A stretch of DNA of 64,000 nucleotides, from the NCBI GenBank assembly GCA_963920705.1, contig OY987239.1, positions 10,073,504 to 10,137,503 of the forward strand, read 5' to 3'. The notes beneath the pieces were generated by a model, which saw only the letters and a program-made list of their open reading frames with translations, ran no database searches and had not been told where the DNA came from. A program made the translations under genes and the position numbers. Of this stretch, positions 1,081 through 59,694 are shown piece by piece (position 1 is the stretch's first letter; each line of letters starts with the position of its first letter). The stretch is from Odiellus spinosus (taxonomy: Eukaryota > Arthropoda > Arachnida > Opiliones > Phalangiidae).

Positions 1081-1418
1081 CAGAAGCCGATGAAACCCTC
1101 TTTTGAAGTCTATTACTCCCGGGTCTTGTCTACCCCTCTCTGTATGGGTTAGTTTCAAAAATCGCGATTCGTACGCCTCCTAACGGTAGATATTTTCGGA
1201 GCGGGAGTTCGTCGAGCGAATATCTCTAGCAGCCTTGGAGTTCGTCCAAAAAACGTCGTCGTTTGTGGATAGAGAGAATTTCCAATTTTGCGTAGACAGG
1301 GGGGTATGAAGTAGGACCCCTCCGATCTCGTAAAATTGTGAATTTTACCCATACAGAGAGGCGCGCTATATGGAACATTAGAGTAGTAGACTTCAAAGGA
1401 GGGTTTCATCGGCTTCTG
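1081..1418 (+). mobile_element. Family A MITE copy A1, intact, TSD CTAAAAG
   Basis: Both 32-bp TIRs are present (CAGAAGCCGATGAAACCCTC at the left, its complement at the right). The 7-bp duplication CTAAAAG lies at 1074-1080 and 1419-1425. Inside the TIRs is a second inverted pair, CTCTCTGTATGGG and CCCATACAGAGAG, so the element can fold back further. Short open frames starting in the TIR (ATGAAACCC) recur in every copy and are not genes. The 'BamA' subtype markers are GTTAGTTTCAAAAA and CCCCTCCGATCTCG (subfamily 1). Confidence 0.93.
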
Positions 1419-2493
1419 CTAAAAGCTAGGGAACTATCCTAGCTATTATTCCCCCCTTCCAGTCAATAGGCATCTTCTCTGTAGAGCTCAGGATCTAGGC
1501 GGGAAAATCAGGAATTACAGGGGCTCTCAAACCTAGTTGGTACGTCTCGCGGTACGGTTGTGCACCGCAATTCCTCGCGGTAACCGATAACCTCTATTTC
1601 TAGCCACAGTGTTAGGTTGGTGTATTATAGGTTAGGTACTAAAAAAAGCAACAGGTGATTGTTATAACTTGGAGTCAATGTCACGCGACATCTACTGAAA
1701 ATTTAATTTAGAAATTGATTTGTGATACCCTACTTGTGACTTTAAACAGTGATGAATGTTTGTAAGTAACATGGTAATTATTTAATATAATTACATTAAT
1801 TTTAATTATCATTTCAAGTCTTGTATCGTAATAATGAAGGATGTAAAACATGGTAATGTGTTAAATAATCAGATTAGTTCAATTGAAACCGTAAAACTAT
1901 CATAATTAAAGTTAAAAATTAAAAAAATATTTTTATTTAAAAAATTTCGTTTTAAGTGACTTAAAAACTAAGTTTTCCATTAGTGTAAATTAGTGACATC
2001 GTACTAGGCAACTCAGTGGTTAAAATTGACTTGTTCTCACCATTATTATGTATTATTGGAAAGAACCATGTGTACATTACTACAAGTGATTGTGAAATGC
2101 CATCTCGGAATTAACCTGTTTTTGAATTATGTCATGTGACATTTTGCGAATGAGTGGAGATGTGTATTGGTTTCTATGCCTTTGAGAGGACATGTTGAGG
2201 GTGAACCTCATTATTTGTGCGGAGCACACGCTCTATTTGCTCCAGCCAATCACGGGTGGAGACATTGGCAACATTATCGTACTTACAATCCAAAAACACT
2301 CAAAGTAAGAACATATTTCGTTCGATTTATTAAGATAATTTTTGGATATCCACAACCCCTTTTAGCCTGATATTTTTGATTAAGGGGGAAATAGCTTTGT
2401 GTAAGGGGGTAAATTGTAACATTTTGGGGCAAAAACAATTATAATCCAAGGGGGTATTCTTCCTGATTAAGTTGGTGCCCCTCTTGGCTACAG
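1419..2493. other. AT-rich unassigned stretch
   Basis: About 1.07 kb without a recognisable gene or known repeat. The last ~50 bp, up to the A2 insertion, are the first half of a duplicated unit whose second copy is at 2925-2990 (shared text TTGGCTAC followed by CTGTCTGT and CTTTGTAATC). A short open frame at 2167-2370 (67 codons) has no recognisable domain. Confidence 0.5.
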
Positions 2494-2832
2494 CAGAAGC
2501 TGATGAAACCCTCCTTTGAAGTCTATTACTCCCGGGTCTTGTCTACCCCTCTCTGTATGGGTTAGTTTCAAAAACCGCGATTCGTACGCCTCCTAACGGT
2601 AGATATCTTCGGAGCGGGAGTTCGTCCAGCGAATATCTCTAGCAGCCTCGGAGATCGTCAAAAAAACGTCGTTATTTGTGGAGAGAGAGAGAATTTTCAA
2701 TTTTCCGTAGACAGGGGGTATGAAGTAGGACCCCTCCGATCTCGTAAAATTGTGAATTTTACCCATACAGAGAGGAGCGCTATATGGAACATTGGAGTAG
2801 TAGACTTCAAAGGAGGGTTTCATCGGCTTCTG
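2494..2832 (+). mobile_element. Family A MITE copy A2, intact, TSD GCTACAG
   Basis: Complete element with both TIRs (the left reads CAGAAGCTGATG). The 7-bp duplication GCTACAG is at 2487-2493 and 2833-2839. A neighbouring duplicated unit at 2925-2990 carries the corresponding uninterrupted text GGCTACGGGATTGTCTGT, an approximate empty site. Confidence 0.93.
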
Positions 2833-3079
2833 GCTACAGGCCTGTCTGTCACTTTGTAATCCTTGGTTCTCTTTTTAAATGTTTCTGTATATTTTCGTGT
2901 TTTAATTCAGGGGCAGGGTTTATTTTGAGGGGGCATTGTCCCTTGGTGTCCCCTTTGGCTACGGGATTGTCTGTAGCTTCCTTTGTAATCTAGTTCAATT
3001 GCATTGAAATATCATCCAATTTCAATTGAATTAAATCCTCACATCAAACCATGGATATTTCGAAGCCACGTTGTGTCTT
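2833..3079. other. Spacer with partial duplicated unit
   Basis: Contains the second half of the unit interrupted by A2 (2840-2870) and a second, uninterrupted version of the unit at about 2925-2990. No gene is seen. Confidence 0.45.
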
Positions 3080-3083
3080 TTAA

Positions 3084-3537
3084 AGGGAGAATGAAAGACC
3101 GAAACAACCTATTTTTAATCGATTAATAATGCTAAAATAATGAGAAAAACAATAATATAACTCACCAAAAATATTTCGTTATTTTATAATCAATTTCCAA
3201 GGTTCCGATGCTAAGCCTAGGCTGCCTAACTCGGTGAACTAGGCTAGCACGACCTGTATTTTTTTTTTTAATATTCGCGGCTGTTCTTGTCGCCAATCAC
3301 GAGCGAGTACGCGTATTTTTAAAATACGCGTACTCGCTGATTGGCGACTAGATCAGACGGGAATATTAAAAAAAAAATACGGCTGGTGCTCGATTAGTTC
3401 GCCGAGCTCGGCAGCCAAGGCTTAGCATCCGCAAGTTTCGGAACTTTGGAAATTGATTATAAAATAAGGATATATTTTTGGTGAGTTATATTATTGTTTT
3501 TCTCATTATTTTAGCATTCTTAATCGATTAAAAATAT
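3084..3537. mobile_element. Family D fold-back element D1, right end missing
   Basis: The left end AGGGAGAATGAAAG follows TTAA at 3080-3083. The two halves of the element are inverted copies of each other, meeting in a central hairpin near 3300-3350 (CGAGTACGCGTATTTT and its complement). The right arm stops at about 3537, before the expected CATTCTCCCT and TTAA. TTAA targets are used by piggyBac and Kolobok transposases. There is no coding capacity. Confidence 0.85.
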
Positions 3538-3735
3538 GTAAATTGGCCCAAAATGGCTCAGTATAGAAATTCACTTCAAACGTGATCCGCTTCTGATAAA
3601 ACGTCAGTGTGTCCCCGTGGACAATATGAAATATAAATCTGATGTCATATACTTTTAAGAAAAATAGCCGGAAAAAGGGGGTAGCGTTTACAGTTGACAA
3701 AGATATATATATAGAAATTTTCTCTATGGTTCCAT

Positions 3736-4072
3736 CAGAAGCCGATGAAACCCTCCTTTGAAGTCTATTACTCCCGGGTCTTGTCTACCCCTCTCTGTAT
3801 GGGTTATTCTCAAAAGTCGCGACTCGTACGCCTCCTAACGGTAGATATTTTCGGAGCGGGAGCTCGTCGAGCGAATATCTCTAGCAGCTTTATAGTTCGT
3901 CCAAAAAACGTCGTCGTTTGTGGAGAGAGAGAATTTCCAATTTTCCGTAGACAGGGGGGATGAAGTAGGACCCCTTCTAACTCGTAAAATTGTGAATTTT
4001 ACCCATACAGAGAGGAGCGCTATATGGAACATTGGAGTAGTAGACTTCAAAGGAGGGTTTCATCGGCTTCTG
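3736..4072 (+). mobile_element. Family A MITE copy A3, intact, TSD GTTCCAT
   Basis: Both TIRs are complete. GTTCCAT is duplicated at 3729-3735 and 4073-4079. The interior has GGGTTATTCTCAAAAG and CCCCTTCTAACTCG, which mark subfamily 2, shared with A6, A11, A13 and A21. Confidence 0.93.
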
Positions 4073-4339
4073 GTTCCATTGAACAAGTATAGGAGCGAGA
4101 CTGGGAAAGAGACATATATTAGAAGCAGGGGGGAAACGGGAGTAGAAAGTGCCATTGAATCGATATGAAAGAAGCGTGTATTCGTCCGTCTTCCGTCGAT
4201 CTTCCCATCGGAGACACACAGCATCCCCCGTATCATCCCCATCCTCCCATTTCTGTCTCTTAAAATCCCTATTTCTCCTTACTAGGCTTACAATCTTACA
4301 CTTTTCGTCATCTTATCCACCTAGATCAGTTCACACTTA

Positions 4340-5968: not shown

Positions 5969-6305
5969 CAGAAGCCGATGAAACCCTCCTTTGAAGTCTA
6001 CTACTCTAATGCTCGATATAGCGCTCCTCTCTGTATGGGTAAAATTCACAATTTTCCGAGATCGCAGGGGTCCTACTTCATCCCCCCTGTCTACGGAAAA
6101 TTGGAAATTCTCTCTCTCCACAAACGACGACGTTTTTTGGACGAACTCCGAGGCTGCTAGAGATATTCGGTGGACGAACTTCCGCTCCGAAAATATCTAC
6201 CGTTAGGAGGCGTACGAATCGCGATTTTTGAAACTAACCCATACAGAGAGGGGTAGACAAGACCCGGGAGTAATAGACTTCAAAGGAGGGTTTCATCGGC
6301 TTCTG
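5969..6305 (-). mobile_element. Family A MITE copy A4, no matching TSD
   Basis: Both TIRs are complete, but the flanks CTAAAAC (left) and ATTGTAC (right) do not match. This suggests recombination between copies or a flank deletion. The interior reads GCTCGATATAGCG where most copies have GTTCCATATAGCG. Confidence 0.88.
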
Positions 6306-7726: not shown

Positions 7727-8185
7727 TTAAACAAGATTCGCTATAATCTCAGACGTTGTAATTATCAAAATTACAGCATGAACTAAAGAAGATTTTAATT
7801 CAAATTTAAGTGAAAACCGCGAACCAAGAATCCATTCAGGTTCCATAAGAATATGGGAGGGCCGCGATTCAATAACCATCCTCCCAAACTTTGTAGCAAA
7901 AGTTCGTCCGCTTCGAATCGATTTTTCAAGTAAATCGCTCCTGACATCTATTATTAACCCGCGCCACTAACGACCTTGACATAATATTTTGAGTAATAAA
8001 AATGGAGCCGAACGAAAAAAGATCTAAGCGTACAAATGTCGCGAAAATTGCGGACGAACTTTTGTTACAAAGTTTGGGAGGATGGTACCAGAGGCTAAAG
8101 CTATGCTCCCATATTCTTATGGAACCTGAATGGATTCTTGCGCGAACTGATAGCATTTGTGGTTACAGCAAATTACCCGTTTCTT
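7727..8185. repeat. Repeat F copy 1, interrupted by E1
   Basis: 7727-7824 plus 8148-8185 match the uninterrupted copy at 12465-12608 (shared text includes AATTATCAAAATTAC, ATGAACTAAAGAAGATTT and AACTGATAGCATTTGT). The interruption is exactly E1 plus one 7-bp duplication. Confidence 0.8.
7825..8140. mobile_element. Family E MITE copy E1, TSD CGCGAAC
   Basis: 316 bp with long TIRs (CAAGAATCCATTCAGGTTCC, continuing to ATATGGGAG). CGCGAAC is duplicated at 7818-7824 and 8141-8147. The related locus at 12550 reads CACGAACTGATAG with no insertion, so both the element boundaries and the duplication length are confirmed within the window. A 63-codon frame inside (from 8002) runs into the TIR and is not a gene. 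Confidence 0.93.
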
Positions 8186-11098: not shown

Positions 11099-11436
11099 CA
11101 GAAGCCGATGAAACCCTCCTTTGAAGTCTACTACTCTAATGTTCCATGTAGCGCTCCTCTCTGTATGAGTAAAATTCACGATTTTACGAGATCGGAGGGG
11201 TCCTACTTCATACCCCCCTGTCTACGGAAAATTGGAAATTCTCTCTCTCCACAAACGACGACGTTTTTTTGACGAACTCCAAGGCTGCTAGAGATATTCG
11301 CTCGACAAACTCCCGCTCCGAAAATATCTACCGTTAGGAGGCGTACGAATCGCTCTTTTTGAAACTAACCCATACAGAGAGGGGTAGACAAGACCCGGGA
11401 GTAAAAGACTTCAAAGGAGGGTTTCATCGGCTTCTG
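11099..11436 (-). mobile_element. Family A MITE copy A5, degraded TSD
   Basis: Both TIRs are complete. The flanks ATCATAT and ATCAACA match at only 4 of 7 positions, so the duplication has decayed or one flank has changed. Confidence 0.9.
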
Positions 11437-11910: not shown

Positions 11911-12239
11911 CAGAAGCCGATGAAACCCTCCTTTGAAGTCAATGTTCCATATAGCGCTCCTCTCTGTATGGGTAAAATTCACAATTTTACGAGTTAGAAG
12001 GGGTCCTACTTCATACCCCCCTGTCTACGGAAAATTGGAAATTCTCTCTCTCCACAAACGACGACGTTTTTTGGACGAACTCCGAGGCTGCTAGAGATAT
12101 TCGCTCGACGAACTCCCGCTCCGAAAACATCTACCGTTAGGAGGCGTACGAATCGCGCCTTTTGAGAATAACCCATACAGAGAAGGGTAGACAAGACCCG
12201 GGAGTATTAGACTTCAAAGGAGGGTTTCATCGGTTTCTG
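11911..12239 (-). mobile_element. Family A MITE copy A6, TSD CTAGAGC
   Basis: CTAGAGC is duplicated at 11904-11910 and 12240-12246. About 9 bp are missing just inside the left TIR (GAAGTCAATGTTCC). The right TIR has one change (CGGTTTCTG). Subfamily 2 interior. Confidence 0.92.
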
Positions 12240-13700: not shown

Positions 13701-16700
13701 CAGGGTGTATTGATAAATTTGGAGCGTATCTAATAAACAACGTTTAGGCGGCGAGTTTCTGAGATATCTGGGAGGCGAGTTTCTGAGATATCTGGGAGGC
13801 GAGTTTCTGAGATATCTGGTAGGCGAGTTTCTGAAATATCTGGGAGGCGAGTTTCTGAAATATCTGGGAGGCGAGTTTCTGAAATATCTGGGAGGCGAGT
13901 TTCTGAAATATCTGGGAGGCGAGTCTCTGAAATGTCCGGGAGGCGAGTTTCTGAAATATCTGGGAGGCGAGTTTCTGAAATATCTGGGAGGCGAGTTTCT
14001 GAAATATCTGGGAGGCGAGTTTCTGAAATATCTGGGAGGCGAGTTTCTGAAATATCTGGGAGGCGAGTCTCTGAAATGTCCGGGAGGCGAGTTTCTGAAA
14101 TATCTGGGAGGCGAGTTTCTGAAATATCTGGGAGGCGAGTTTCTGAAATATCTGGGAGGCGAGTCTCTGAAATATCTGGGAGGCGAGATTCTGAAATATC
14201 TGGGAGGCGAGTTTCTGAAATATCTGGGAGGCGAGTTTCTGAAATATCTGGGAGGCGAGTTTCTGAAATATCTGGTAGGCGAGTTTCTGAAATATCTGGT
14301 AGGCGAGTTTCTGAAATATCTGGTAGGCGAGTTTCTGAAATATCTGGTAGGCGAGTTTCTGAAATATCTGGGAGGCGAGTTTCTGAAATATCTGGGAGGC
14401 GAGTTTCTGAAATATCTGGGAGGCGAGTTTCTGAAATATCTGGGAGGCGAGTTTCTGAAATATCTGGGAGGCGAGTTTCTGAAATATCTGGGAGGCGAGT
14501 TTCTGAAATATCTGGGAGGCGAGTTTCTGAAATATCTGGGAGGCGAGTTTCTGAAATATCTGGGAGGCGAGTTTCTGAAATATCTGGGAGGCGAGTTTCT
14601 GAAATATCTGGGAGGCGAGTCTCTGAAATGTCCGGGAGGCGAGTTTCTGAAATATCTGGGAGGCGAGTTTCTGAAATATCTGGGAGGCGAGTTTCTGAAA
14701 TATCTGGGAGGCGAGTTTCTGAAATATCTGGGAGGCGAGTCTCTGAAATATCTGGGAGGCGAGATTCTGAAATATCTGGGAGGCGAGTTTCTGAAATATC
14801 TGGGAGGCGAGTTTCTGAAATATCTGGGAGGCGAGTTTCTGAAATATCTGGTAGGCGAGTTTCTGAAATATCTGGGAGGCGAGTTTCTGAAATATCTGGG
14901 AGGCGAGTTTCTGAAATATCTGGGAGGCGAGTTTCTGAAATATCTGGGAGGCGAGTTTCTGAAATATCTGGGAGGCGAGTTTCTGAAATATCTGGGAGGC
15001 GAGTTTCTGAAATATCTGGGAGGCGAGTTTCTGAAATATCTGGGAGGCGAGTTTCTGAAATATCCGGGAGGCGAGTCTCTGAAATGTCCGGGAGGCGAGT
15101 TTCTGAAATATCTGGGAGGCGAGTTTCTGAAATATCTGGGAGGCGAGTTTCTGAAATATCTGGGAGGCGAGTTTCTGAAATATCTGGGAGGCGAGTTTCT
15201 GAAATATCTGGGAGGCGAGTTTCTGAAATATCTGGGAGGCGAGTCTCTGAAATGTCCGGGAGGCGAGTTTCTGAAATATCCGGGAGGCGAGTTTCTGAAA
15301 TATCTGGGAGGCGAGTTTCTGAAATATCTGGGAGGCGAGTTTCTGAAATATCTGGGAGGCGAGTTTCTGAAATATCTGGGAGGCGAGTCTCTGAAATGTC
15401 CGGGAGGCGAGTTTCTGAAATATCCGGGAGGCGAGTTTCTGAAATATCTGGGAGGCGAGTTTCTGAAATATCTGGGAGGCGAGTTTCTGAAATATCTGGT
15501 AGGCGAGTTTCTGAAATATCTGGGAGGCGAGTTTCTGAAATATCTGGGAGGCGAGTTTCTGAAATATCTGGGAGGCGAGTTTCTGAAATATCTGGGAGGC
15601 GAGTTTCTGAAATATCTGGGAGGCGAGTTTCTGAAATATCTGGGAGGCGAGTTTCTGAAATATCTGGGAGGCGAGTTTCTGAAATATCTGGGAGGCGAGT
15701 TTCTGAAGTATCTGGGAGGCGAGTTTCTGAAGTATCTGGGAGGCGAGTTTCTGAAATATCTGGGAGGCGAGTTTCTGAAATATCTGGGAGGCGAGTTTCT
15801 GAAATATCTGGGAGGCGAGTTTCTGAAATATCTGGTAGGCGAGTTTCTGAAATATCTGGGAGGCGAGTCTCTGAAATATCTGGGAGGCGAGTCTCTGAAA
15901 TATCTGGGAGGCGAGTCTCTGAAATATCTGGGAGGCGAGTCTCTGAAATATCTGGGAGGCGAGTTTCTGAAATATCTGGGAGGCGAGTTTCTGAAATATC
16001 TGGGAGGCGAGTTTCTGAAATATCTGGGAGGCGAGTTTCTGAAATATCTGGGAGGCGAGTTTCTGAAATATCTGGGAGGCGAGTTTCTGAAATATCTGGG
16101 AGGCGAGTTTCTGAAATATCTGGGAGGCGAGTTTCTGAAGTATCTGGGAGGCGAGTTTCTGAAGTATCTGGGAGGCGAGTTTCTGAAGTATCTGGGAGGC
16201 GAGTTTCTGAAGTATCTGGGAGGCGAGTTTCTGAAGTATCTGGGAGGCGAGTTTCTGAAATATCTGGGAGGCGAGTTTCTGAAATATCTGGGAGGCGAGT
16301 TTCTGAAATATCTGGGAGGCGAGTTTCTGAAATATCTGGTAGGCGAGTTTCTGAAATATCTGGGAGGCGAGTCTCTGAAATATCTGGGAGGCGAGTCTCT
16401 GAAATATCTGGGAGGCGAGTTTCTGAAATATCTGGGAGGCGAGTTTCTGAAATATCTGGGAGGCGAGTTTCTGAAATATCTGGGAGGCGAGTTTCTGAAA
16501 TATCTGGGAGGCGAGTTTCTGAAATATCTGGGAGGCGAGTTTCTGAAATATCTGGGAGGCGAGTTTCTGAAATATCTGGGAGGCGAGTTTCTGAAATATC
16601 TGGGAGGCGAGTTTCTGAAATATCTGGGAGGCGAGTCTCTGAAATGTCCGGGAGGCGAGTTTCTGAAATATCTGGGAGGCGAGTTTCTGAAATATCTGGG

Positions 16701-16766
16701 AGGCAAGAAATATCTGGTTTTAAGAATTAGTACGAATATTGTTGTAGGAATGTTAATCACACCCTG
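13701..16766. mobile_element. TA-flanked inverted-end element filled by the 24-bp array
   Basis: The array is bracketed by CAGGGTGT at 13701 and ACACCCTG ending at 16766. TA lies outside on both sides, and the inverted identity extends to 12 bp as TGTACAGGGTGT. Inverted ends plus TA suggest a Tc1/mariner-like MITE whose interior expanded into a minisatellite. The inner 20 bp of the ends match only weakly, so this is an inference. Confidence 0.55.
13746..16715. repeat. 24-bp minisatellite, about 124 units
   Basis: Head-to-tail units of GGCGAGTTTCTGAAATATCT plus GGGA. The period is a multiple of three and the unit lacks stops in one frame on each strand. This gives open frames of 1034 codons on minus (repeating RYFRNSPP) and 932 on plus (repeating SGRRVSEI). 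Variant units occur in groups: CTCTGAAATGTCCG at 13924, 14068, 14620, 15076, 15244, 15388 and 16636; GAAGTATCT runs near 15705 and 16137; GGTAGGCG runs near 14275. The grouping shows segmental duplication of multi-unit blocks. I do not regard either frame as a gene: amino-acid variation follows DNA unit variants, and no plausible N-terminal exon is seen. Confidence 0.95.
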
Positions 16767-23206: not shown

Positions 23207-23543
23207 CAGAAGTAGATGAAACCCTCCTTTGAAGTCTACTACTCTAATGTTCGATTTAGCGCTCCTCTCTGTATGGGTAAAATATCCAATTTTACGAGAT
23301 CGGAGGGGTCCTACTTCATACCCCCTGTCTACGGAAAATTGGGAATTCTCTCTCTCCACAAACGACGACGTTTTTTTGACGAACTCCGAGGTTGCTAGAG
23401 ATATTCGCTGGACGAACTCCCGCTTCGAAAATATCTACCGTTAGGAGGCGTACGAATCGCGCTTTTTGAAACTAACCCATACAGAGAGGGGTAGACAAGA
23501 CCCGGGAGTAATAGACTTCAAAGGAGGGTTTCATCGGCTTCTG
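23207..23543 (-). mobile_element. Family A MITE copy A8, variant TIR
   Basis: The left TIR reads CAGAAGTAGATG while the right keeps CATCGGCTTCTG. The flanks AGGTTGT and ATTTTGT agree at 5 of 7. The GTAGATG variant is always on the side next to GTTCGATWTAGCG (also A14, A15 and A17), marking subfamily 3. Confidence 0.9.
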
Positions 23544-24020: not shown

Positions 24021-24359
24021 CAGAAGCCGATGAAACCCTCCTTTGAAGTCTATTACTCCCGGGTCTTGTCTACCCCTCTCTGTATGGGTTAGTTTCAAAA
24101 AGCGCGATTCGTACGCCTCCTAACGGTAGATATTTTCGGAGCGGGAGTTCGTCGAGCGAATATCTCTAGCAACCTCGGAGTTCGTCCAAAAAACGTCGTC
24201 GTTTGTGGAGAGAGAGAATTTCCAATTTTACGTTGACATGGGGGGTATGAAGTAGGACCCCTCCGATCTCGTAAAATTGGGAATTTTACCCATACAGAGA
24301 GGAGCGCTATATGGAACATTCGAGTAGTAGACTTCAAAGGAGGGTTTCATCGGCTTCTG
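24021..24359 (+). mobile_element. Family A MITE copy A9, intact, TSD GTGGCAT
   Basis: Both TIRs are complete. GTGGCAT is duplicated at 24014-24020 and 24360-24366. Confidence 0.93.
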
Positions 24360-25370: not shown

Positions 25371-26406
25371 TTTCCAGAAAAGTCTGGGGAAGTCTAGAAA
25401 ATTCTGGGGAAGTCTAGAAAATTCTGGGGAAGTCTAGAAAATTCTGGGGAAGTCTAGAAAATTCTGGGGAAGTCTAGAAAATTCTGGGGAAGTCTAGAAA
25501 ATTCTGGGGAAGTCTAGAAAATTCTGGGGAAGTCTAGAAAATTCTGGGGAAGTCTAGAAAATTCTGGGGAAGTCTAGAAAATTCTGGGGAAGTCTAGAAA
25601 ATTCTGGGGAAGTCTAGAAAATTTTGGGGAAGTCTAGAAAAGTCTGGGGAAGTCTAGAAAAGTCTGGGGAAGTCTAGAAAAGTCTGGGGAAGTCTAGAAA
25701 AGTCTGGGGAAGTCTAGAAAAGTCTGGGGAAGTCTAGAAAATTCTGGGGAAGTCTAGAAAATTCTGGGGAAGTCTAGAAAATTCTGGGGAAGTCTAGAAA
25801 ATTCTGGGGAAGTCTAGAAAATTCTGGGGAAGTCTAGAAAATTCTGGGGAAGTCTAGAAAATTCTGGGGAAGTCTAGAAAATTCTGGGGAAGTCTAGAAA
25901 ATTCTGGGGAAGTCTAGAAAATTCTGGGGAAGTCTAGAAAATTCTGGGGAAGTCTAGAAAATTCTGGGGAAGTCTAGAAAATTCTGGGGAAGTCTAGAAA
26001 ATTCTGGGGAAGTCTAGAAAATTCTGGGGAAGTCTAGAAAATTCTGGGGAAGTCTAGAAAATTCTGGGGAAGTCTAGAAAATTCTGGGGAAGTCTAGAAA
26101 ATTCTGGGGAAGTCTAGAAAATTCTGGGGAAGTCTAGAAAATTCTGGGGAAGTCTAGAAAATTCTGGGAAAGTCTAGAAAATTCTGGGGAAGTCTAGAAA
26201 ATTCTGGGGAAGTCTAGAAAATTCTGGGGAAGTCTAGAAAATTCTGGGGAAGTCTAGAAAATTCTGGGGAAGTCTAGAAAATTCTGGGGAAGTCTAGAAA
26301 ATTCTGGGGAAGTCTAGAAAATTCTGGGGAAGTCTAGAAAATTCTGGGGAAGTCTAGAAAATTCTGGGGAAGTCTAGAAAATTCTGGGGAAGTCTAGAAA
26401 ATTCTG
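25371..26406. repeat. 20-bp satellite, about 51 units, HSE-like
   Basis: Very uniform units of ATTCTGGGGAAGTCTAGAAA. A block near 25640-25740 has AGTCTGGGG in place of ATTCTGGGG. Each unit splits into four 5-mers (TTCTG GGGAA GTCTA GAAAA). Every unit junction contains GAAAATTC, the head-to-head heat-shock factor half-site pair nGAAnnTTCn. Confidence 0.95.
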
Positions 26407-27154: not shown

Positions 27155-27640
27155 CAGAAGCAAATGAAACCCTCCTTTGAAGGCTATTAATCTATTATCA
27201 GAAGCCGATGAAACCCTCCTTTGAAGTCTATTACACCCGGGTCTTGTCTACCCCTCTCTGTATGGGTTAGTTTCAAAAATCGCGATTCGTACGCCTCCTA
27301 ACGGTAGATATTTTCGGAGCGGGAGTTCGTCGAGCAAATATCTCTAGCAGCCTTGGAGTTCGTCAAAAAAACGTCGTCGTTTGTGGAGAGAGAGAATTTC
27401 CAATTTTCCGTAGACAGGGGGGTATGAAGTAGGACCCCTCCGATCTCGTAAAATTGGGAATTTTACCCATACAGAGAGGAGCGCTATATCGAACATTAGA
27501 GTAGTAGACTTCAAAGGAGGGTTTCATCGGCTTCTGCTATTATTCAATAGGATAGGTTTTACTAGCTCGGAGGGGACCTACTTCATACCCATCTCTCTAC
27601 GGAAAATTTGAAATTCTCTCTCTCTCTCTCTCTCTCTCTT
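27155..27640 (-). mobile_element. Old family A copy split by A10
   Basis: 27155-27198 is a diverged left TIR and start (CAGAAGCAAATGAAACCC to CTATTAATCTATTAT). 27544-27640 continues the same reading with AGCTCGGAGGGGACCTACTT, CTCTCTACGGAAAATTTG and an expanded CT run. The interval is A10. The right half is missing beyond the CT tract. Confidence 0.75.
27199..27536 (+). mobile_element. Family A MITE copy A10, nested, TSD CTATTAT
   Basis: Intact copy with CTATTAT at 27192-27198 and 27537-27543, inserted into an older member of its own family in the opposite orientation. Confidence 0.93.
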
Positions 27641-27784: not shown

Positions 27785-28118
27785 CAGAAGCCGATGAAAC
27801 CCTCCTTTGAAGTCTACTACTCCAATGTTCCATATAGCGCTCCTCTCTGTATGGGTAAAATTCCCAATTTTACGAGTTAGAAGGGGTCCTACTTCATCCC
27901 CCCTGTCTACGGAAAATTGGAAATTCTCTCTTTCCATAAACGACGACGTTTTTTGGACGAACTCCAAGGCTGCTAGAGATATTCGCTTGACGAACTCCCG
28001 CTCCGAAAATATCTACCGTTTGGAGGCGTACGGATCGCTCCTTTTGAGAATAACCCATACAGAGAGGGGTAGACAAGACCCGGGAGTAATAGACAAAGGA
28101 GGGTTTCATCGGCTTCTG
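27785..28118 (-). mobile_element. Family A MITE copy A11, TSD ACATAAC
   Basis: ACATAAC is duplicated at 27778-27784 and 28119-28125. Subfamily 2 interior. The right TIR lacks four bases (TAGACAAAGGAGGG instead of TAGACTTCAAAGGAGGG). Confidence 0.92.
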
Positions 28119-29647: not shown

Positions 29648-29977
29648 CAGAAGCCGATGAAACCCTCCTTTGAAGTCTACTACTCTAATGTTCCATCCTC
29701 TCTGTATGGGTAAAATTCACGATTTTACGAGATCGGAGGGGTCCTACTTCATACCCCCCTGTCTACGGAAAATTGGAAATTCTCTCTCTCCACATACGAC
29801 GACGTTTTTTTGACGAACTCCGAGGCTGCTAGAGATATTCGCTGGACGAACTCCCGCTCCGAAAATATCTACCGTTAGGAGGCGTACGAATCGCGCTTTT
29901 TGAAACTAACCTATTCAGAGAGGGGTAGACAAGACCCGGGAGTAATAGACTTCAAAGGAGGGTTTCATCGGCTTCTG
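29648..29977 (-). mobile_element. Family A MITE copy A12, internal deletion
   Basis: Both TIRs are complete. About 9 bp (TATAGCGCT region) are missing near 29695. The flanks ATTAAAT and CCCATAC do not match. Confidence 0.9.
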
Positions 29978-34937: not shown

Positions 34938-35278
34938 CAGAAGCCGATGAAACCCTCCTTTGAAGTCTATTACTCCCGGGTCTTGTCTACCCCTCACTGT
35001 ATGGGTTAGTTTCAAAAAGCGCGATTCGTATGCCTCCTAACGGTAGATATTTTCGGAGCGGGAGTTCGTCGAGCGAATATCTCTAGCAGCCTCGGAGTTC
35101 GTCAAAAAAAAAAACGTCGTCGTTTGTGGAGAGAGAGAATTTCCAATTTTCCGTAGACAGGGGGTATGAAGTAGGAGCCCTCCGATCTCGTAAAATTGGG
35201 AATTTTACCCATACAGAGAGGAGCGCTATATCGAACATTAGAGTAGTAGACTTCAAAGGAGGGTTTCATCTACTTCTG
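34938..35278 (+). mobile_element. Family A MITE copy A14, variant TIR, TSD ATACCAT
   Basis: ATACCAT is duplicated at 34931-34937 and 35279-35285. The right TIR is the GTAGATG-type variant (CATCTACTTCTG). The run of A at 35103-35112 is expanded. Confidence 0.93.
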
Positions 35279-35585: not shown

Positions 35586-36059
35586 GATTTGGGTCCACTT
35601 GATCGACTCCCAAATGATCGACAAGAGGTCCACTTGATCGACACCCAAATGATCGACTCACAATTGATCGACTCCCAAATGATCGACAAAAGGTCCACTT
35701 GATCGACTCCCAAATGATCGACAAAGGGTCCACTTGATCGACTCCCAAACGATCGACAAAGGGATCAAATGATTGATGCCTAATCCCAAATTACCGACAA
35801 CAAAGGGTGCATTTGATCGTTTCCCAATTGGTCAACTTCGTAATAACGATTATAAATAGATTAACCAACCTAACCTAACCCAAACCTAACCTAACCTAAC
35901 CTGACCTATACTCGTTACTCGCTAAAAAACTGGGCTGTCGATCAATTGGAATGGCTTGTCGATCAAATGGGAGTCGATCAAATGGGAGTCGATCAAACGG
36001 TAGTCGATCAAACGGACTCCTTGTCGATCAATTGGAAGTCGAGCAAATGAACCTAAGCC
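35586..36059. mobile_element. Fold-back element C2, TSD GAAAAATAC
   Basis: 474 bp, opposite orientation to C1, with GAAAAATAC at 35577-35585 and 36060-36068. The arms are TCGATC motif arrays, and the core is CCTAA-type repeats at about 35868-35903. The 9-bp duplication here and 8-bp at C1 would fit a Mutator-like or related transposase. There is no coding capacity. Confidence 0.9.
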
Positions 36060-36498
36060 GAAAAATACATAGTTATTTAGTACGATGAATTAACACAAGA
36101 TGGCGCTGATTTTAATTGTAGGGGTCTCAGTTTTTCGGGGGGTAAGGATAGTTTGATTTCCCAGTCTTCTGAACTCTCTTACCTCTATCCACAGTATCGC
36201 TGCTACTCACGGAAGCGGGTGGGCACGCTGTAGGGCAGACGGTGTCGGTCTCGGATAATAGGCTCAATTGTGGCGACATCTTACGCGTAAAACACCGTTA
36301 TAATAACGCATTTCTTATCATAAATAAAGTAAAAATTAAACTTAATTATTCCTACGTCCGACTTTTAACATTTCATTCGAAAGTAAAGTTGAAGAATCTA
36401 ACGATATTAGGTACAGCCTCACTTGAGGTTTGGAGCCTTCCACCCGGTGTCAGCTCTGTCTTTAATAACTTACACTTAGTCGTTGTCACTCGTTATAC
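36060..36498. other. Unassigned spacer
   Basis: A 121-codon open frame at 36242-36607 runs into E2 and shows no domain. No gene is called. Confidence 0.35.
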
Positions 36499-36814
36499 CA
36501 AGATTTCATTCAGGTTCCATAAGAATATGGGAGGGCCGCGATTCAATAACCATCCTCCCAAACTTTGTAGCAAAAGTTCGTCCGCTTCGAATCGATTTTT
36601 CAAGTAAATCGCTCCTGACATCTATTATTAACCCGCGCCACTAACGACCTTGACATAATATTTTGGGTAATAAAAATGGAGCCGACCGAAAAAAGATCTA
36701 AGCGTACAAATGTTGGGAAAATTGCGGACGAACTTTTGTTACACAGTTTGGGAGGATGGTACCAGAGGCTAAAGCTATGCTCCCATATTCTTATGGAACC
36801 TGAATGGATTCTTG
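36499..36814. mobile_element. Family E MITE copy E2, TSD GTTATAC
   Basis: 316 bp, the same length as E1 and nearly identical. GTTATAC is duplicated at 36492-36498 and 36815-36821. TIRs run CAAGATTTCATTCAGGTTCC (left) and the complement of CAAGAATCCATTCAGG (right). Confidence 0.93.
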
Positions 36815-38800: not shown

Positions 38801-39480
38801 GTTTAAATTTCAAACACCATTTTGAATCCGGCCAATCATATTTCGTTTTAGCAGAGGTATATAATAACCCCCTTCGGTGGGAAGTCTGAAAGGTAGGCAA
38901 AATCGACGAACAACGAGTGCCCGGCGTAAATCGCGGCGGATCGACACACCGCTTTACTCCCAAAAAATAGTTACACCATTTTCAACCTCACTAAATTTTC
39001 CCTACGCACACTTCCGGAACTGACGAGCTGAAGTCAACCTTCGACTCCAATTTAACAGACAGCCTGACTCCTGAGACAGGATGTTCTAAACACAAATCGA
39101 GCCGTCTTGTTTATACAAAGACCATTTACTAGAGTAGCGACATTGAGAAGTCCAGCGCGAGCTAGTGGCCTAGATAGTCAGTAGCGGGCTCTCGTTGTTC
39201 GTGATTTTTAGCATTGGTAGTATAGGGGCTTTCATACTTTCCACCGAAGGGGGTTATTATATACCTCTGGTTTTAGGCATTGCAATATTATAAATGCAAG
39301 TGGCAAGGCCCCAAAAGGTGGCGCCACATATCCCATCAATTCATACCAATTATATCAGATATTTTTTGAAACCCGTTGAAGACGGTAGCGCCATCTAACA
39401 AAACACGTATTAAGATATAATGATTGGCTGGTATCTCCTTTTCTACATGGAACAAAATGGTGGACGATTTAAATAAGTTT
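38801..39480. repeat. Old repeat J copy 1, hosting H1
   Basis: CACCATTTTGAATCC (38817) and CAAAAGGTGGCGCCAC (39313) flank H1. Both also occur, in the same order, around K1 at 56891 and 57350. The two copies are strongly diverged. Confidence 0.5.
38852..39269. mobile_element. Family H MITE copy H1, TSD GTTTTAG
   Basis: 418 bp with TIRs of about 40 bp (CAGAGGTATATAATAACCCC, continuing CTTCGGTGGGAAG). GTTTTAG is duplicated at 38845-38851 and 39270-39276. It differs from H2 at roughly 15 sites. There is no coding capacity. Confidence 0.93.
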
Positions 39481-40757: not shown

Positions 40758-41175
40758 CAGAGGTATATAATAACCCCCTTCGGTGGGAAGTATGAAAGGT
40801 AGGCAAAATCGACGAACAACGAGTGCCCGGCGTAAATCGCGGCGGATCGACACACCGCTTTACTCCCAAAAAATAGTTACACCATTTTGAACCTCGCTAA
40901 ATTTTCCCTACGGACACTTCCGGAACTCGCGAGCTGAAGTCAACCTTCGACTCCATTTTAACAGACAGCCTGACTCCCGAGACAGGAAGTTCTAAACACA
41001 AATCGAGCCGTCTTGTTTAAACAAAGACCATTTACTAGAGTAGCGACATTGAAAAGTCCAGCGCGAGCTAGTGGCCTAGATAGTCAGCAGCGGGCTCTCG
41101 TTGTTCGTGATTTTTAGCATTGGTAGTATAGGGGCTTTCATACTTCCCCCCGAAGGGGGTTATAATATACCTCTG
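40758..41175. mobile_element. Family H MITE copy H2, TSD GTTATAT
   Basis: 418 bp, the same length as H1. GTTATAT is duplicated at 40751-40757 and 41176-41182. The right TIR has ACTTCCCCCCGAAGGGG. It lies only 1.5 kb from H1. Confidence 0.93.
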
Positions 41176-42812: not shown

Positions 42813-43150
42813 CAGAAGCCGATAAAACCCTCCTTTGAAGTCTATTACTCCCTGGTCTTGTCTACCCCTCTCTGTATGGGTTAGTTTCAAAAAGCGCGAT
42901 TCGTACGCCTCCTAACGGTAGATATTTTCGGAGCGGGAGTTCGTCCAGCGAATATCTCTAGCAGCCTCGGAGTTCGTCAAAAAAACGTCGTCGTTTGTGG
43001 AGAGAGAGAATTTCCAATTTTCCGTAGACAGGGGGGTATGAAGTAGGATCCCTCCGATCTCGGAAAATTGGGAATTTTACCCATGCAGAGAGTGGCGCTA
43101 TATCGAACATTAGAGTAGTAGACTTCAAAGGAGGGTTTCATCTACTTCTG
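42813..43150 (+). mobile_element. Family A MITE copy A15, variant TIR, near-perfect TSD
   Basis: The flanks ATAAAAC and ATAAAAG agree at 6 of 7. The right TIR is CATCTACTTCTG and the left has CCGATAAAACC. Confidence 0.91.
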
Positions 43151-43426: not shown

Positions 43427-43764
43427 CAGAAGCTGATGAAACCCTCCTTTGAAGTCTACTACTCCAATGTTCCATATAGCGCTCCTCTCTGTATGGGTAA
43501 AATTCCCAATTTTCCGAGATCGGAGGGGTCCTACTTCATACCCCCCTGTCTACGGAAAATTGGAAATTCTCTCTCTCCACAAACGACGACGTTTTTTGGA
43601 CGAACTCCAAGGCTGCTAGAGATATTCGCTCGACGAACTCCCGCTCCGAAAATATCTACCGTTAGGAGGCGTACGAATCGCGCTTTTTGAAACTAACCCA
43701 TACAGAGAGGGGTAGACAAGACCCGGGAGTAATAGACTTCAAAGGAGGGTTTCATCGGCTTCTG
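43427..43764 (-). mobile_element. Family A MITE copy A16, intact, TSD ATATTAG
   Basis: ATATTAG is duplicated at 43420-43426 and 43765-43771. Both TIRs are present (the left reads CAGAAGCTGATG, as in A2). Confidence 0.93.
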
Positions 43765-44152: not shown

Positions 44153-44491
44153 CAGAAGCCGATGAAACCCTTCTTTGAAGTCTATTACTCCCGGGGATCT
44201 TGTCTACCCCTCTCTGTATGGGTTAGTTTCAAAAAGCGCGATTCGTACGCCTCCTAACGGTAGATATGTTCAAAGCGGGAGTTCGTCGAGCGAATATCTC
44301 TAGCAGCCTCGGAGTTCGTCAAAAAACGTCGTTGTTTGTGGAGAGAGAGAATTTCCAATTTTTCGTAGACAGGGGGGTATGAAGTAGGACCCCTAGGATC
44401 TCGGAAAATTGGGAATTTTACCCATACAGAGAGGAGCGCTATATCGAAAATTAGAGTAGTAGACTTCAAAGGAGGGTTTCATCTACTTCTG
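44153..44491 (+). mobile_element. Family A MITE copy A17, variant TIR, no TSD
   Basis: Right TIR CATCTACTTCTG. The flanks GTTTTAC and GTAATGT do not match. There is a two-base insertion near the left end (CCCGGGGATCTTG). Confidence 0.9.
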
Positions 44492-44665: not shown

Positions 44666-45003
44666 CAGAAGTACATGAAACCCTCCTTTGAAGTCTACTA
44701 CTCTAATTTTCGATATAGCGCTCATCTCTGTATGGGTAAAATTCCCAATTTTACGAGATCGGAGGGGTCCTACTTCATACCCCCCTGTCTACGGAAAATT
44801 GGAAATTCTCTCTCTCCACAAACGACGACGTTTTTTTGACGAACTCCGAGGCTGCTAGAGATATTCGCTCGACGAACTCCCGCTCCGAAAATATTTACCG
44901 TTAGGAGGCGTACGAATCGCGCTTTTTGAAACTAACCCATACAGAGAGGGGCAGACAAGACCCGGGAGTAATAGACTTCAAAGGAGGGTTTTATCGGCTT
45001 CTG
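44666..45003 (-). mobile_element. Family A MITE copy A18, variant TIR, TSD GTTGTAG
   Basis: GTTGTAG is duplicated at 44659-44665 and 45004-45010. The left TIR reads CAGAAGTACATG and the right has TTTTATCGG. Confidence 0.93.
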
Positions 45004-45577: not shown

Positions 45578-47118
45578 CAGACCTTAATTGAGATATGTCT
45601 TCCTTGGTATTTGTTCACCATAATTAAGATATGTCCTCCATGGTATTTGCACACCAAAATTAAGATATGTCCTCCACAGTAACTGAACACCAAAATTAAG
45701 ATATGTCCTCCACAGTAACTGAACATCAAAATTAAGATATGTCCTCCACAGTAACTGAACACCAAAATTAAGATATGTCCTCCACAGTAACTGAACACCA
45801 AAATTAAGATATGTCCTCCACAGTAACTGCGCACCAAAATTAAGAAATGTCCTCAACAATAACTGCACACCAAAATTAAGAGATGTCCTCAACAATAACT
45901 GAACACCAAAATTAAGATATGTCCTCCACAGTAACTGAACACCAAAATTAAGATATGTCCTCAACAGTAACTGAACACCAAAATTAAGATATGTCCTCAA
46001 CAGTAACTGAACACCAAAATTAAGATATGTCCTCAACAGTAACTGAACACCAAAATTAAGATATGTCCTCCACAGTAACTGAACACCAAAATTAAGATAT
46101 GTCCTCCACAGTAACTGAACACCAAAATTAAGATATGTCCTCCACAGTAACTGAACACCAAAATTAAGATATGTCCTCCACAGTAACTGAACACCAAAAT
46201 TAAGATATGTCCTCCACAGTAACTGAACACCAAAATTAAGATCCACAGTAACTGCGCACCAAAGTTTAGATATGTCCTCCACAGTAACTGAACACCAAAA
46301 TTAAGATATGTCCTCCACAGTAACTGAACACCAAAATTAAGATATGTCCTCCACAGTAATTGCGCACCAAAATTAAGATATATCCTCCACAGTAACTAAA
46401 CACCAAAATTAAGATATGTCCTCCACAGTAACTGAACTCCAAAATTAAGATATGTCCTCAACAGTAACTAAACACCAAAATTAAGATATGTCCTCCACAG
46501 TAACTGAACACCAAAATTAAGATATGTCCTCAACAGTAACTGAACACCAAAATTAAGATATGTCCTCCACAGTAACTGAACACCAAAATTAAGATATGTC
46601 CTCAACAGTAACTGAACACCAAAGTTTAGATATGTCCTCCACAGTAACTGAACACCAAAATTAAGATATGTCCTCCACAGTAACTGAACATCAAAATTAA
46701 GATATGTCCCCCACAGTAACTGAACACCAAAATTAAGATATGTCCTCCACAGTAACTGAACATCAAAATTAAGATATGTCCCCCACAGTAGTTGAAGACC
46801 AAAATTAAGATATGTCCTCCACAGTAACTGAACACCAAAATTAAGATATGTCCTCCACAGTAACTGAACACCAAAATTAAGATATGTCCTCCACAGTAAC
46901 TGAACACCAAAATTAAGATATGTCCTCCACAGTAACTGAACACCAAAATTAAGATATGTCCTCAACAGTAACTGAACACCAAAATTAAGATATGTCCTCC
47001 ACAGTAACTGAACACCAAAATTAAGATATGTCCTCCACAGTACTTGAAGACCAAAATTAAGATATGTCCTCAACAATAACTGCACACCAAAATTAAGATA
47101 TGTCCTCCACTGTAGTTG
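45578..47118. repeat. 36-bp minisatellite, about 43 units
   Basis: Units of CACCAAAATTAAGATATGTC plus CTCCACAGTAACTGAA. Variants are CTCAACAGT, CCCCACAGT, GCGCACC and a shortened unit near 46235. The 12-codon period yields minus-strand frames (for example repeating VQLLWRTYLNFG) that are not genes. Both array edges decay gradually. Confidence 0.95.
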
Positions 47119-49563: not shown

Positions 49564-49901
49564 CAGAAGCCGATGAAACCCTCCTTTGAAGTCTACTACT
49601 CTAATGTTCCATATAGCTCTCCTCTCTGTATGGGTAAAATTCCCAATTTTACGAGATCGGAGGGGTCCTACTTCATACCCCCCTGTCTACGGAAAATTGG
49701 AAATTCTCTCTCTCCACAAACGACGACGTTTGGTTGACGAACTCCAAGGCTGCTAGAGATATTCGGTGGACGAACTCCCTCTCCGAAAATATCTACCGTT
49801 AGGAGGCGTACGAGTCGCGCTTTTTGAAACTAACCCATACAGAGAGGGGTAGACAAGACCCGGGAGTAATAGACTTCAAAGGAGGGTTTCATCGGCTTTT
49901 G
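49564..49901 (-). mobile_element. Family A MITE copy A19 in repeat O
   Basis: The right TIR has CGGCTTTTG. The 7-bp flanks do not match. Instead ATGTCATAGAAC on the left and ATGTCATTAAAC on the right form a longer imperfect flank pair. Confidence 0.9.
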
Positions 49902-51065: not shown

Positions 51066-52833
51066 TTGACTCTTAGAGGCGACTTTATCGAGACGTATCT
51101 CTCTTAGAGGCGACTTTATCGAGAGACGTATCTCTCTTATAAAGGCGACTTTATCGAGAGACGTATCTCTCTTATAAAGTCGACTTTATCGAGAGACGTA
51201 TCTCTCTTATAAAGGCGACTTTATCGAGAGACGTATCTCTCTTATAAAGGCGACTTTATCGAGAGACGTATCTCTCTTATAAAGGCGACTTTATCGAGAG
51301 ACGTATCTCTCTTATAAAGGCGACTTTATCGAGAGACGTATCTCTCTTATAAAGGCGACTTTATCGAGAGACGTATCTCTCTTATAAAGGCGACTTTATC
51401 GAGAGACGTATCTCTCTTATAAAGGCGACTTTATCGAGAGACGTATCTCTCTTATAAAGGCGACTTTATCGAGAGACGTATCTCTCTTTTAAAGGCGACT
51501 TTATCGAGAGACGTATCTCTCTTATAAAGGCGACTTTATCGAGAGACGTATCTCTCTTATAAAGTCGACTTTATCGAGAGACGTATCTCTCTTATAAAGG
51601 CGACTTTATGGAGAGACGTATCTCTCTTATAAAGGCGACTTTATCGAGAGACGTATCTCTCTTATAAAGGCGACTTTATCGAGAGACGTATCTCTCTTAT
51701 AAAGGCGACTTTATCGAGAGACGTATCTCTCTTATAAAGGCGACTTTATCGAGAGACGTATCTCTCTTATAAAGGCGACTTTATCGAGAGACGTATCTCT
51801 CTTATAAAGGCGACTTTATCGAGAGACGTATCTCTCTTATAAAGGCGACTTTATCGAGAGACGTATCTCTCTTATAAAGGCGACTTTATCGAGAGACGTA
51901 TCTCTCTTATAAAGGCGACTTTATCGAGAGACGTATCTCTCTTATAAAGTCGACTTTATCGAGAGACGTATCTCTCTTATAAAGTCGACTTTATCGAGAG
52001 ACGTATCTCTCTTATAAAGTCGACTTTATCGAGAGACGTATCTCTCTTATAAAGGCGACTTTATCGAGAGACGTATCTCTCTTATAAAGGCGACTTTATC
52101 GAGAGACGTATCTCTCTTATAAAGGCGACTTTATCGAGAGACGTATCTCTCTTATAAAGGCGACTTTATCGAGAGACGTATCTCTCTTATAAAGGCGACT
52201 TTATCGAGAGACGTATCTCTCTTATAAAGGCGACTTTATCGAGAGACGTATCTCTCTTATAAAGGCGACTTTATCGAGAGACGTATCTCTCTTATAAAGG
52301 CGACTTTATCGAGAGACGTATCTCTCTTATAAAGGCGACTTTATCGAGAGACGTATCTCTCTTATAAAGGCGACTTTATCGAGAGACGTATCTCTCTTAT
52401 AAAGGCGACTTTATCGAGAGACGTATCTCTCTTATAAAGTCGACTTTATCGAGAGACGTATCTCTCTTATAAAGTCGACTTTATCGAGAGACGTATCTCT
52501 CTTATAAAGGCGACTTTATCGAGAGACGTATCTCTCTTATAAAGGCGACTTTATCGAGAGACGTATCTCTCTTATAAAGGCGACTTTATCGAGAGACGTA
52601 TCTCTCTTATAAAGGCGACTTTATCGAGAGACGTATCTCTCTTATAAAGGCGACTTTATCGAGAGACGTATCTCTCTTATAAAGGCGACTTTATCGAGAG
52701 ACGTATCTCTCTTATAAAGGCGACTTTATCGAGAGACGTATCTCTCTTATAAAGGCGACTTTATCGAGAGACGTATCTCTCTTATAAAGGCGACTTTATC
52801 GAGAGACGTATCTCTCTTATAAAGGCGACTTTA
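51066..52833. repeat. 35-bp hairpin satellite, about 50 units
   Basis: Each unit is two 16-nt hairpins, ATAAAGGCGACTTTAT and GAGAGACGTATCTCTC, separated by single C and TT spacers (16+1+16+2). Seven units read ATAAAGTCGACTTTAT, making that hairpin a perfect palindrome. Changes in the stems are very rare. Confidence 0.95.
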
Positions 52834-54029: not shown

Positions 54030-54039
54030 TATAGTATTA

Positions 54040-54480: not shown

Positions 54481-54816
54481 CAGAAGCCGATAAAACCCTC
54501 CTTTGAAGTCTACTACTCTAATGTTCCAAATAGCTCTCCTCTCTGTATGGGTAAAATTCCCAATTTTACGAGATCGAAGGGGTCCTACTTCATACCCCCC
54601 TGTCTACGGAAAATTGGAAATTCTCTCTCCACATACGACGACGTTTGGTTGACGAACTCCGAGGCTGCTAGAGATATTCGCTGGACGAACTCCCGCTCCG
54701 AAAATATCTACCGTTAGGAGGCGTACGAATCGCGCTTTTTGAAACTAACCCATACAGAGAGGGGTAGACAAGACCAGGGAATAATAGACTTCAAAGGAGG
54801 GTTTCATCGGCTTCTG
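54481..54816 (-). mobile_element. Family A MITE copy A20, intact, TSD GTGTTAC
   Basis: GTGTTAC is duplicated at 54474-54480 and 54817-54823. GTTTGGTTGACG in the interior is shared only with A19, suggesting a close relationship. Confidence 0.93.
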
Positions 54817-54823
54817 GTGTTAC

Positions 54824-56019: not shown

Positions 56020-56356
56020 CAGAAGCCGATGAAACCCTCCTTTGAAGTCTATTACTCCCGGGTCTTGTCTACCCCTCTCTGTATGGGTTATTCTCAAAAG
56101 GCGCGATCCGTACGCCTCCTAACGGTAGATGTTTTCGGAGCGGGAGCTCGTCGAGCGAATATCTCTAGCAGCCCTAGAGTTCGTCCAAAAAACGTCGTCG
56201 TTTGTGGAGAGAGAGAATTTCCAATTTTCCGTAGACAGGGGGGATGAAGTAGGACCCCTTCTAACTCGGAAAATTGGGAATTTTACCCATACAGAGAGGA
56301 GCGCTATATGGAACATTGGAGTAGTAGACTTCAAAGGAGGGTTTCATCGGCTTCTG
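56020..56356 (+). mobile_element. Family A MITE copy A21, imperfect TSD
   Basis: The flanks GTGATAA and GTTATAT agree at 5 of 7. Subfamily 2 interior. Confidence 0.91.
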
Positions 56357-57480: not shown

Positions 57481-58689
57481 CAGAGCTCCCATAGTACCTA
57501 TAACTACCTATAATTCCCTGGTGGTCGTATAAAAATATTTAATTCGTAAATTTATCCGATAAAATCCTATTTTATTTATTTGTTATGTTGATTAAATTGC
57601 TCTGAAAAAGGAAAAAAAAATCCATGTATATTAATTTTGGTTCATGAAAATTCGGTTAAAAGAAACATTCAACTTTAGTTTTGAAGTTTTCAACAGATCT
57701 AGGATTTTTAATATTGTCCGTTAGACACCGTTTTACTTAGCTCTAAAACTATACATCAATTTAAATCCGTCACGAGTCCGGCTACACAATTCTCTAGTTT
57801 TGCATCGTCTGCTTGTTCTAGAAAGTTCTTCACACGCGGTCGACGGATGTGTAGTCCGGTTTTCGAAGTGTATCTCGCGGTTTTAAAGTTTTATTTTATG
57901 ATAATCGTTAATATTAAGCGTAAGTTAATTGTAATTATTACAGTTTTGGTCATAATATTCGCTGGACTATCGCGAAATGATAGAAATAAGTTTGAAACGA
58001 ATCTAGGCATTTTGATGAGGTATTGAATCGGCGGGATAACGCGAGTGATCTCATGACGGGATTTAAGTGTTATGTAATTTTGAAGAGCTACCTATGTCCT
58101 TAGTCTTAATTGGTGAGTGAATTTTTGCATTACATTTTCGAATAACTAGCATTATCAATTTCAATTAGTCGAAAAGTAGGCTTAAGAAGTATCCGTAGAG
58201 ATCGTGTGATTTTATAGCTCGTTATCTTCGGCAAACGTTTTTAAAAGTGTTGGATTCTATACCTAGGCCTATTTTTTTCTACGTGTTAGCTTATTTAGGG
58301 CGCATTCGCGATTTTTAGGCTTCACACAATTGCCAACTCAGTGTAGACTTGACAATAGATCCATTGTTCAAAAAACCTGTGTAGTGATGATAAAGCTAGA
58401 GACGTTCGTTACAATATGACCTTTAGAAACTAGAATACAGCCTTATGGGCTCAGTATTGCTTTACTTGGTTACACGAATGAAACCAGAAACCGAAGAAGC
58501 GAAAAAAATCGGTTGTGACTTAATCTCGGGCGAAGGATTTTGGTATTACGGGTCAGAGGTCAACCACAGAGGGTGTTGATAATAGCGGCGCATTGGGTGG
58601 TAACGTGCCTTCAAACCAGGCCCCCCATAAGAATTCCCTAGCTGCTTTTGTTAAAGTCAAAATGTCACGACGTTTTCACGAAAGCTTTT
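57481..58689. other. 1.2 kb unassigned, with a perfect HSE
   Basis: No coding exon is recognised. The segment 57770-58000 is slightly richer in CpG and carries the heat-shock element listed separately. Confidence 0.4.
57816..57828. promoter_or_regulatory. Perfect three-unit heat-shock element
   Basis: TTCTAGAAAGTTC matches TTCnnGAAnnTTC exactly. About 0.5 such matches are expected by chance in 64 kb, and no gene start is visible downstream. Confidence 0.35.
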
Positions 58690-59090
58690 GCCGCTTTATC
58701 TATCTACAAATTACTCGTTTTCAAACGTATAACGATGGATAAGAAATTCACGTTTCCAGCCAGAATTAGTCTAAAATATAAGAAAAATATTTCAAATTAA
58801 CTTTTAATTCGAAGAATATAAATAAAACGACGAAAGTAAGATTTTAAATCATCTTTTTATTCGTTATTTTTCACGAAAATCAATTTTGAATGTTTTTTTA
58901 TCCGAACGTATAACGCGGATAATATTCTAAGATAAGTTGCCATTTTTGTTGGATAATAAAAACGGATATGGATTACGTTTTTTTACAGTTTATCTTCGAA
59001 TAAGTTAACTTGAATGAAAAATAGTCTATTTTTAATCAAACAGATAATATACATCAGAATTTAGTAGAATTTATAAAATTAATAAAAAAT
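58690..59090 (-). mobile_element. Family B MITE copy B17, ends missing
   Basis: From CCGCTTTATCTATCTAC to TTTATAAAATTAATAAAAAATC. Neither terminal GAGCTC is present. Confidence 0.84.
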
Positions 59091-59246
59091 CTGCATATAA
59101 GAAATATCCAAATCTTTATTAGGTCCCGATTGAGTCTGCGCAATGGTTTTAGAGATTATAATCTCGTTAGGGTTTCTGTCATAAATTAAGCCTGGTGTTT
59201 CTTAATTAAATTCCTTTCCTCATTTCCCTTTTCCATATAGCCAGAC

Positions 59247-59587
59247 CAGAAGCCGATGAAACCCTCCTTTGAAGTCTACTACTCTAATGTTCCATATAGC
59301 GCTCCTCTCTGTATGGGTAAAATTCCCAATTTTACGAGATCAGAGGGGTCCTACTTCATACCCCCCTGTCTACGGAAAATTACAAATTCTCTCTCTCCAC
59401 AAACGACGACGTTTTTTTTTTGACGAACTCCGAGGCTGCTAGAGATATTCGCTCGACGAACTTCCGCTCCGAAAATATCTACCGTTAGGAGGCGTACGAA
59501 TCGCGATTTTTGAAACTAACCCATACAGAGAGGGGTAGACAAGACCCGGGAGTAATAGACTTCAAAGGAGGGTTTCATCGGCTTCTG
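59247..59587 (-). mobile_element. Family A MITE copy A22, intact, TSD GCCAGAC
   Basis: GCCAGAC is duplicated at 59240-59246 and 59588-59594. Both TIRs are complete. Confidence 0.93.
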
Positions 59588-59694
59588 GCCAGACTTAATG
59601 AAGAATTTCAGTCATCCACTTCGGTTAAGCGTTTATCGTCATAATTTCAATATTTTTTTCGCGGATTAAGAAAGATAATTAAAGTGGCACTCTC

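Follow-up and report, generated by a model that had tools for sequence, protein, structure and literature searches.

Three miniature inverted-repeat families of Odiellus spinosus with 7-bp target-site duplications are very probably non-autonomous P-superfamily elements

We analyzed a 64-kb stretch of the Odiellus spinosus genome (contig OY987239.1, positions 10,073,504 to 10,137,503; hereafter the window) that carries three families of miniature inverted-repeat transposable elements (MITEs), named A, E and H. All three are very probably non-autonomous elements of the P superfamily (P-MITEs), new families of a known kind; most likely they are mobilized as ordinary passengers by P-type transposases and do not represent a novel kind of element. 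They share with this superfamily a target-site duplication (TSD) of 7 bp, a palindromic target with a GT...AC core and terminal inverted repeats (TIRs) on the order of 30 bp with C...G ends; transposase-carrying P elements of the same genome also make 7-bp duplications. About 16,000 small repeats (an estimate from end counts) are thereby assigned to the P superfamily, mainly on the target-site evidence and the P elements of the same genome.

The window lies in a contig labelled C17 of a genome of 443 Mb in 286 contigs, and contains 24 copies: 20 complete copies of MITE A, 2 of E and 2 of H. They are, in order:

1081..1418: MITE A, TSD CTAAAAG, exact 7 bp
2494..2832: MITE A, TSD GCTACAG
3736..4072: MITE A, TSD GTTCCAT
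5969..6305: MITE A, no matching duplication (CTAAAAC / ATTGTAC); each flank fits VTNNNAB by eye
7825..8140: MITE E, TSD CGCGAAC
11099..11436: MITE A, no matching duplication
11911..12239: MITE A, TSD CTAGAGC
23207..23543: MITE A, no matching duplication
24021..24359: MITE A, TSD GTGGCAT
27199..27536: MITE A, TSD CTATTAT
27785..28118: MITE A, TSD ACATAAC
29648..29977: MITE A, no matching duplication
34938..35278: MITE A, TSD ATACCAT
36499..36814: MITE E, TSD GTTATAC
38852..39269: MITE H, TSD GTTTTAG
40758..41175: MITE H, TSD GTTATAT
42813..43150: MITE A, duplication with one mismatch (ATAAAAC / ATAAAAG)
43427..43764: MITE A, TSD ATATTAG
44153..44491: MITE A, no matching duplication
44666..45003: MITE A, TSD GTTGTAG
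49564..49901: MITE A, no matching duplication
54481..54816: MITE A, TSD GTGTTAC
56020..56356: MITE A, no matching duplication (GTGATAA / GTTATAT)
59247..59587: MITE A, TSD GCCAGAC

All sixteen 7-bp duplications that a first-pass annotation had read in the window (12 A, 2 E and 2 H) are indeed exact and 7 bp long, and stricter end motifs recover ten of them. Its counts of A at position 6 (15/16) and T at position 2 (12/16) were also reproduced when recounted by eye. It did not mention that no exact duplication flanks eight of the 20 complete A copies, one of which is off by a single mismatch. We enlarged the sample to the window plus 77 genome loci; it should be noted that sampling was non-random, since copies from beyond the window come from loci that were first matches on contig C1. 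A copy was accepted if an 18-20-base TIR motif was matched at each end with no more than 3 mismatches, and overlapping pairs and repeated flanks were removed. Among the 86 complete copies compared (43 A, 22 E and 21 H), 56 have an exact 7-bp duplication (26/43, 13/22 and 17/21, respectively) and 30 have no exact duplication at all. Lengths from 3 to 12 bp were tested over the 86 copies, and no exact duplication other than 7 bp was found. Shuffling the right flanks within each family gave a mean of only 0.6-0.8 exact matches. One further E copy with an exact 7-bp duplication is split by another element (L030:922-1516) and stands outside the 56/86 count.

The duplicated sites follow a common rule. 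In the pooled 7-bp duplications, T occupies position 2 in 46/56 and A position 6 in 51/56. The self-complementary rule VTNNNAB, proposed from the window as common to the three families, held in the larger sample: it fits 38 of 56 duplications (15/26, 10/13 and 13/17, respectively, in A, E and H), vs. 81 of 1736 neighbouring 7-mers of the same flanks (4.7%; binomial p ~2e-37) and 3.8% of the 7-mers of the window. Its strictest form, with T never at position 1 and A never at position 7, is true of the sixteen window duplications but not of the larger sample (2/56 and 5/56, respectively). In A and H, the base three positions upstream of the duplication also tends to be T, and the base three positions downstream A (35/52 and 27/34, respectively). 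This preference is not clear in E (12/26, p 0.08), and the difference between A plus H and E gives a Fisher p of 0.019 with the two sides taken as independent.

In A copies with at least two mismatches between flanks, 9/16 single flanks keep both the T at position 2 and the A at position 6 (12% expected; p 3e-5). Since single flanks of these duplication-less copies still fit the rule, our data suggest that they reflect exchange between copies and not decay. No exchange partners were found for them by eye among the flanks of the window. The copies at 5969-6305, 44153-44491, 49564-49901 and others have at least one flank that still fits the rule, as if halves had been exchanged.

The three consensus sequences are 338 bp (A, from 41 copies), 316 bp (E, 21) and 418 bp (H, 20) long, with a mean identity of copies to their own consensus of 96.5%, 98.1% and 98.2%, respectively. 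The TIRs measure 38 bp (37 matching), 35 bp (34 matching) and 41 bp (41 matching), and A and E have inner inverted repeats separate from them. The families are without internal similarity to one another, in line with the earlier description of them as unrelated: comparison of the consensus sequences revealed no between-family similarity beyond 9-base words. The shared start given earlier as CARAR has to be widened to CARRR, because E begins with CAAGA. The A end word CAGAAGCC occurs 13,062 + 13,218 times in the genome, vs. 2,339 + 2,396 for the reversed control, and corresponds to about 10,800 copies if both ends are assumed to be present. The heads of E (1 mismatch allowed) and H (2 mismatches allowed) occur 2,867 + 2,848 and 2,348 + 2,330 times (controls 0, and 0 and 2, respectively), giving estimates of about 2,900 and 2,300 copies. 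A, E and H are too short to encode a THAP/RNase-H/GTP-binding transposase, and none of the nine open reading frames (ORFs) of at least 120 aa in the window is contained entirely within a MITE copy; one (36242-36607) extends into an E copy.

P-type transposases are present elsewhere in the genome. A first look with PF21787 gave 386 candidates, of which 150 were scored and 150 matched. Of the 12 P locus groups that we sampled, five could be resolved at both ends:

P1: L070, 3777 bp, TIR 31 bp, four sites TTTGAAG, ATTATAC, GTTTTAC and ATACAGA
P2: L073, 4581 bp, TIR 35 bp, site GTTTATA
P3: L072 and L082 (L072:126 to L082, C17:8098425-8104149), 5725 bp, TIR 33 bp, site ACTACAC, inside an A copy
P4: L103, 5318 bp, TIR 35 bp with one mismatch, site GTAGAAT
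P5: L106, 6182 bp, TIR 29 bp, site GTACCTA

Exact 7-bp duplications flank these elements at all eight resolved sites, with T at position 2 in 7/8, A at position 6 in 5/8 and both in 4/8 (12% expected, p 0.010). All five P ORFs have P-type RNase-H and GTP-binding domains; a THAP domain is seen in that of P1 and, for P3, in a distinct ORF. Comparison with solved structures covered two of the five ORFs, those of P5 and P3, and both match the Drosophila P transposase 6p5a. P3 probably moved recently, since those pieces of its C2 and C3 copies that were compared match it at 100% identity. The P loci L069 and L078-L081 had no resolvable ends, and L107 and L108 gave only a stretch possibly holding a P left end, with no TIR match.

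By their target rule, A, E and H group with P and come closest to 1360 and Galileo. In the available portion of PMC3276498, the modal duplication is 7 bp for Drosophila 1360 and 8 bp for P and hobo, and the 1360 target motif is GTTNAAC, earlier KTNBWAB, a core that falls within VTNNNAB. The outer context differs, with T/A at three bases in A and H vs. ANAGT...ACTNT for the P group in the same portion, and the likeness to 1360 concerns the duplication and target site. Galileo also makes a 7-bp duplication, GTANTAC, which is set in a longer palindromic site (PMC4168063, in excerpt), but its TIRs are described as unusually long (PMC3688188, in excerpt), whereas those of A, E and H are 35-41 bp, with inner inverted repeats in A and E. 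The P-MITEs of Anopheles gambiae are likewise short and attributed to P elements of the same genome; according to the excerpted text of PMC1562414, however, both they and the Anopheles P elements have 8-bp duplications, and their ends match known P subfamilies, while A, E and H have 7 bp and no matching P element was found. The five P families described here add to the 7-bp members 1360 and Galileo of the papers cited, and our data suggest that an 8-bp duplication is not a general feature of P elements.

We propose that a P-type transposase supplied from another locus would bind the 35-41-bp TIRs of A, E and H and excise them. It would then join the MITE to its target with a 7-bp stagger at sites like GTWNWAC, as for Drosophila 1360 and Galileo, and gap repair would leave the 7-bp duplication. 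We further infer that different P lineages served the MITEs, perhaps A and H together and E apart.

Several points weigh against the P assignment. Some P families elsewhere make 8-bp duplications (PMC1562414, in the same excerpt). The transposase-carrying element that the first-pass annotation had proposed to look for, bounded by the ends of A, E or H, did not turn up, in searches of low power for A and E and with H not searched genome-wide. The ends of the three families were absent from the 12 sampled P locus groups (both ends resolved in 5/12, with 386 P candidates in existence), and their TIRs align with those of P1-P5 no better than shuffles do (best 0.115, A with P1). For A, searches for TIRs with a differing interior returned 22 places in one case and 43 in another, and comparison by eye showed none of the 150 scored P matches within 10 kb of them; for E there were 0 places. 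The 43 were mostly MITE variants by eye, with about six ambiguous. These searches are weak negative evidence, because each mask passes only ~21-24% of unrelated continuations (calculated). A literature search with three TIR strings, which did not extend to repeat databases, found no paper.

Two candidate partners were rejected. The P3 locus L072 has 36 bp of the A TIR, but once it was extended and pieces of the C2 and C3 copies were compared, it proved to be an A copy interrupted by a 5725-bp P element, with the exact duplication ACTACAC. At C1:12200345 and 12210446, E ends some 10 kb from each other suggested a long element; their flanks are mirrored, as in an inverted duplication (L104 and L105; C1:12200310-12210490).

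The first-pass annotation had suggested one transposase lineage for the three MITEs, and this is supported at the level of the superfamily only. That a single P transposase family cross-mobilized three or more unrelated MITEs, reading the target and the TIR layout rather than the TIR sequence, is unlikely. The duplication length and core rule are identical in A, E and H, their TIRs are alike in length, several more 7-bp CA...TG families are present, and A and H share the outer T/A preference. The A and H TIRs are also weakly similar (15/6000 shuffles do as well when the first base is held fixed; 169/6000 when the first four are). However, the E TIR aligns with A or H no better than shuffles do, and E lacks the outer preference. 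P families whose ends differ all have duplications of 7 bp, so the 7-bp rule is not proof of one transposase; it is at least partly a trait of the superfamily.

An origin of A, E and H from a hAT lineage making 7-bp duplications is considerably less probable still. H starts with CAGAG and the rule has the form n-T...A-n, both reminiscent of hAT ends. Transposases of this type are abundant in the genome (220 PF05699 candidates, 150 scored matches). The rule also resembles that of hobo, NTNNNNAN (PMC3276498, available portion). Against this, an 8-bp duplication is seen in 0/86 MITE copies, whereas two hAT families with the same ends have exact 8-bp duplications at 5/7 sites (of the others, one has none and one is missing an end), and the resolved hAT sites are without the rule (T at position 2 in 2/5, A at position 7 in 2/5). 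The hAT loci L076 and L077 had no resolvable ends.

Of the transposase types named earlier (THAP/P, Dada or other), P is supported, with 7 bp at 8/8 sites vs. 8 bp at 5/7 for hAT. A Dada origin we regard as very improbable. Dada does make 6-7-bp duplications, but the excerpted text of PMC3706591 places its insertions in small RNA genes and describes its U6 and U1 families as without TIRs, which disagrees with the 35-41-bp TIRs and varied sites seen here. Rfam (gathering threshold) and ARAGORN found no RNA gene in the window with its 24 copies, a search that may overlook RNA genes interrupted by an insertion. Finally, base composition or reading bias as the source of the position biases is refuted by the neighbouring 7-mer control, even in a window of 63.5% A+T.

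Further insertions were revealed by a scan of the window and the sampled loci for 14-base TIRs (at least 13 matching) with flanking duplications. Nine more short insertions have CA...TG ends and exact 7-bp duplications, with T at position 2 in 5/9, A at position 6 in 7/9 and both in 3/9:

L074:33-312
L016:360-640
L066:2655-2946
L007:963-1408
L009:854-1150
L003:441-678
L029:531-828, with a TIR resembling that of P1
L054:538-854
L030:1229-1500, nested within the E copy L030:922-1516

The likeness between the TIRs of L029:531-828 and P1 (0/6000 shuffles as good, picked from 91 pairs) links a 7-bp MITE to a P element of the same genome. Two other short elements (L028:522-990 and L048:2341-2856) begin with CAAGGTTAGTAAAG, have exact 8-bp duplications and are possibly hAT MITEs.

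The window also contains long minisatellites at 13750-16704 (24-bp unit), 25376-26407 (20), 45616-47114 (36) and 51077-52833 (35). Judged by position, seven of its nine ORFs of at least 120 aa overlap tandem arrays. A short TAACC-type repeat lies at 35862-35908 and is reminiscent of arthropod telomere repeats.

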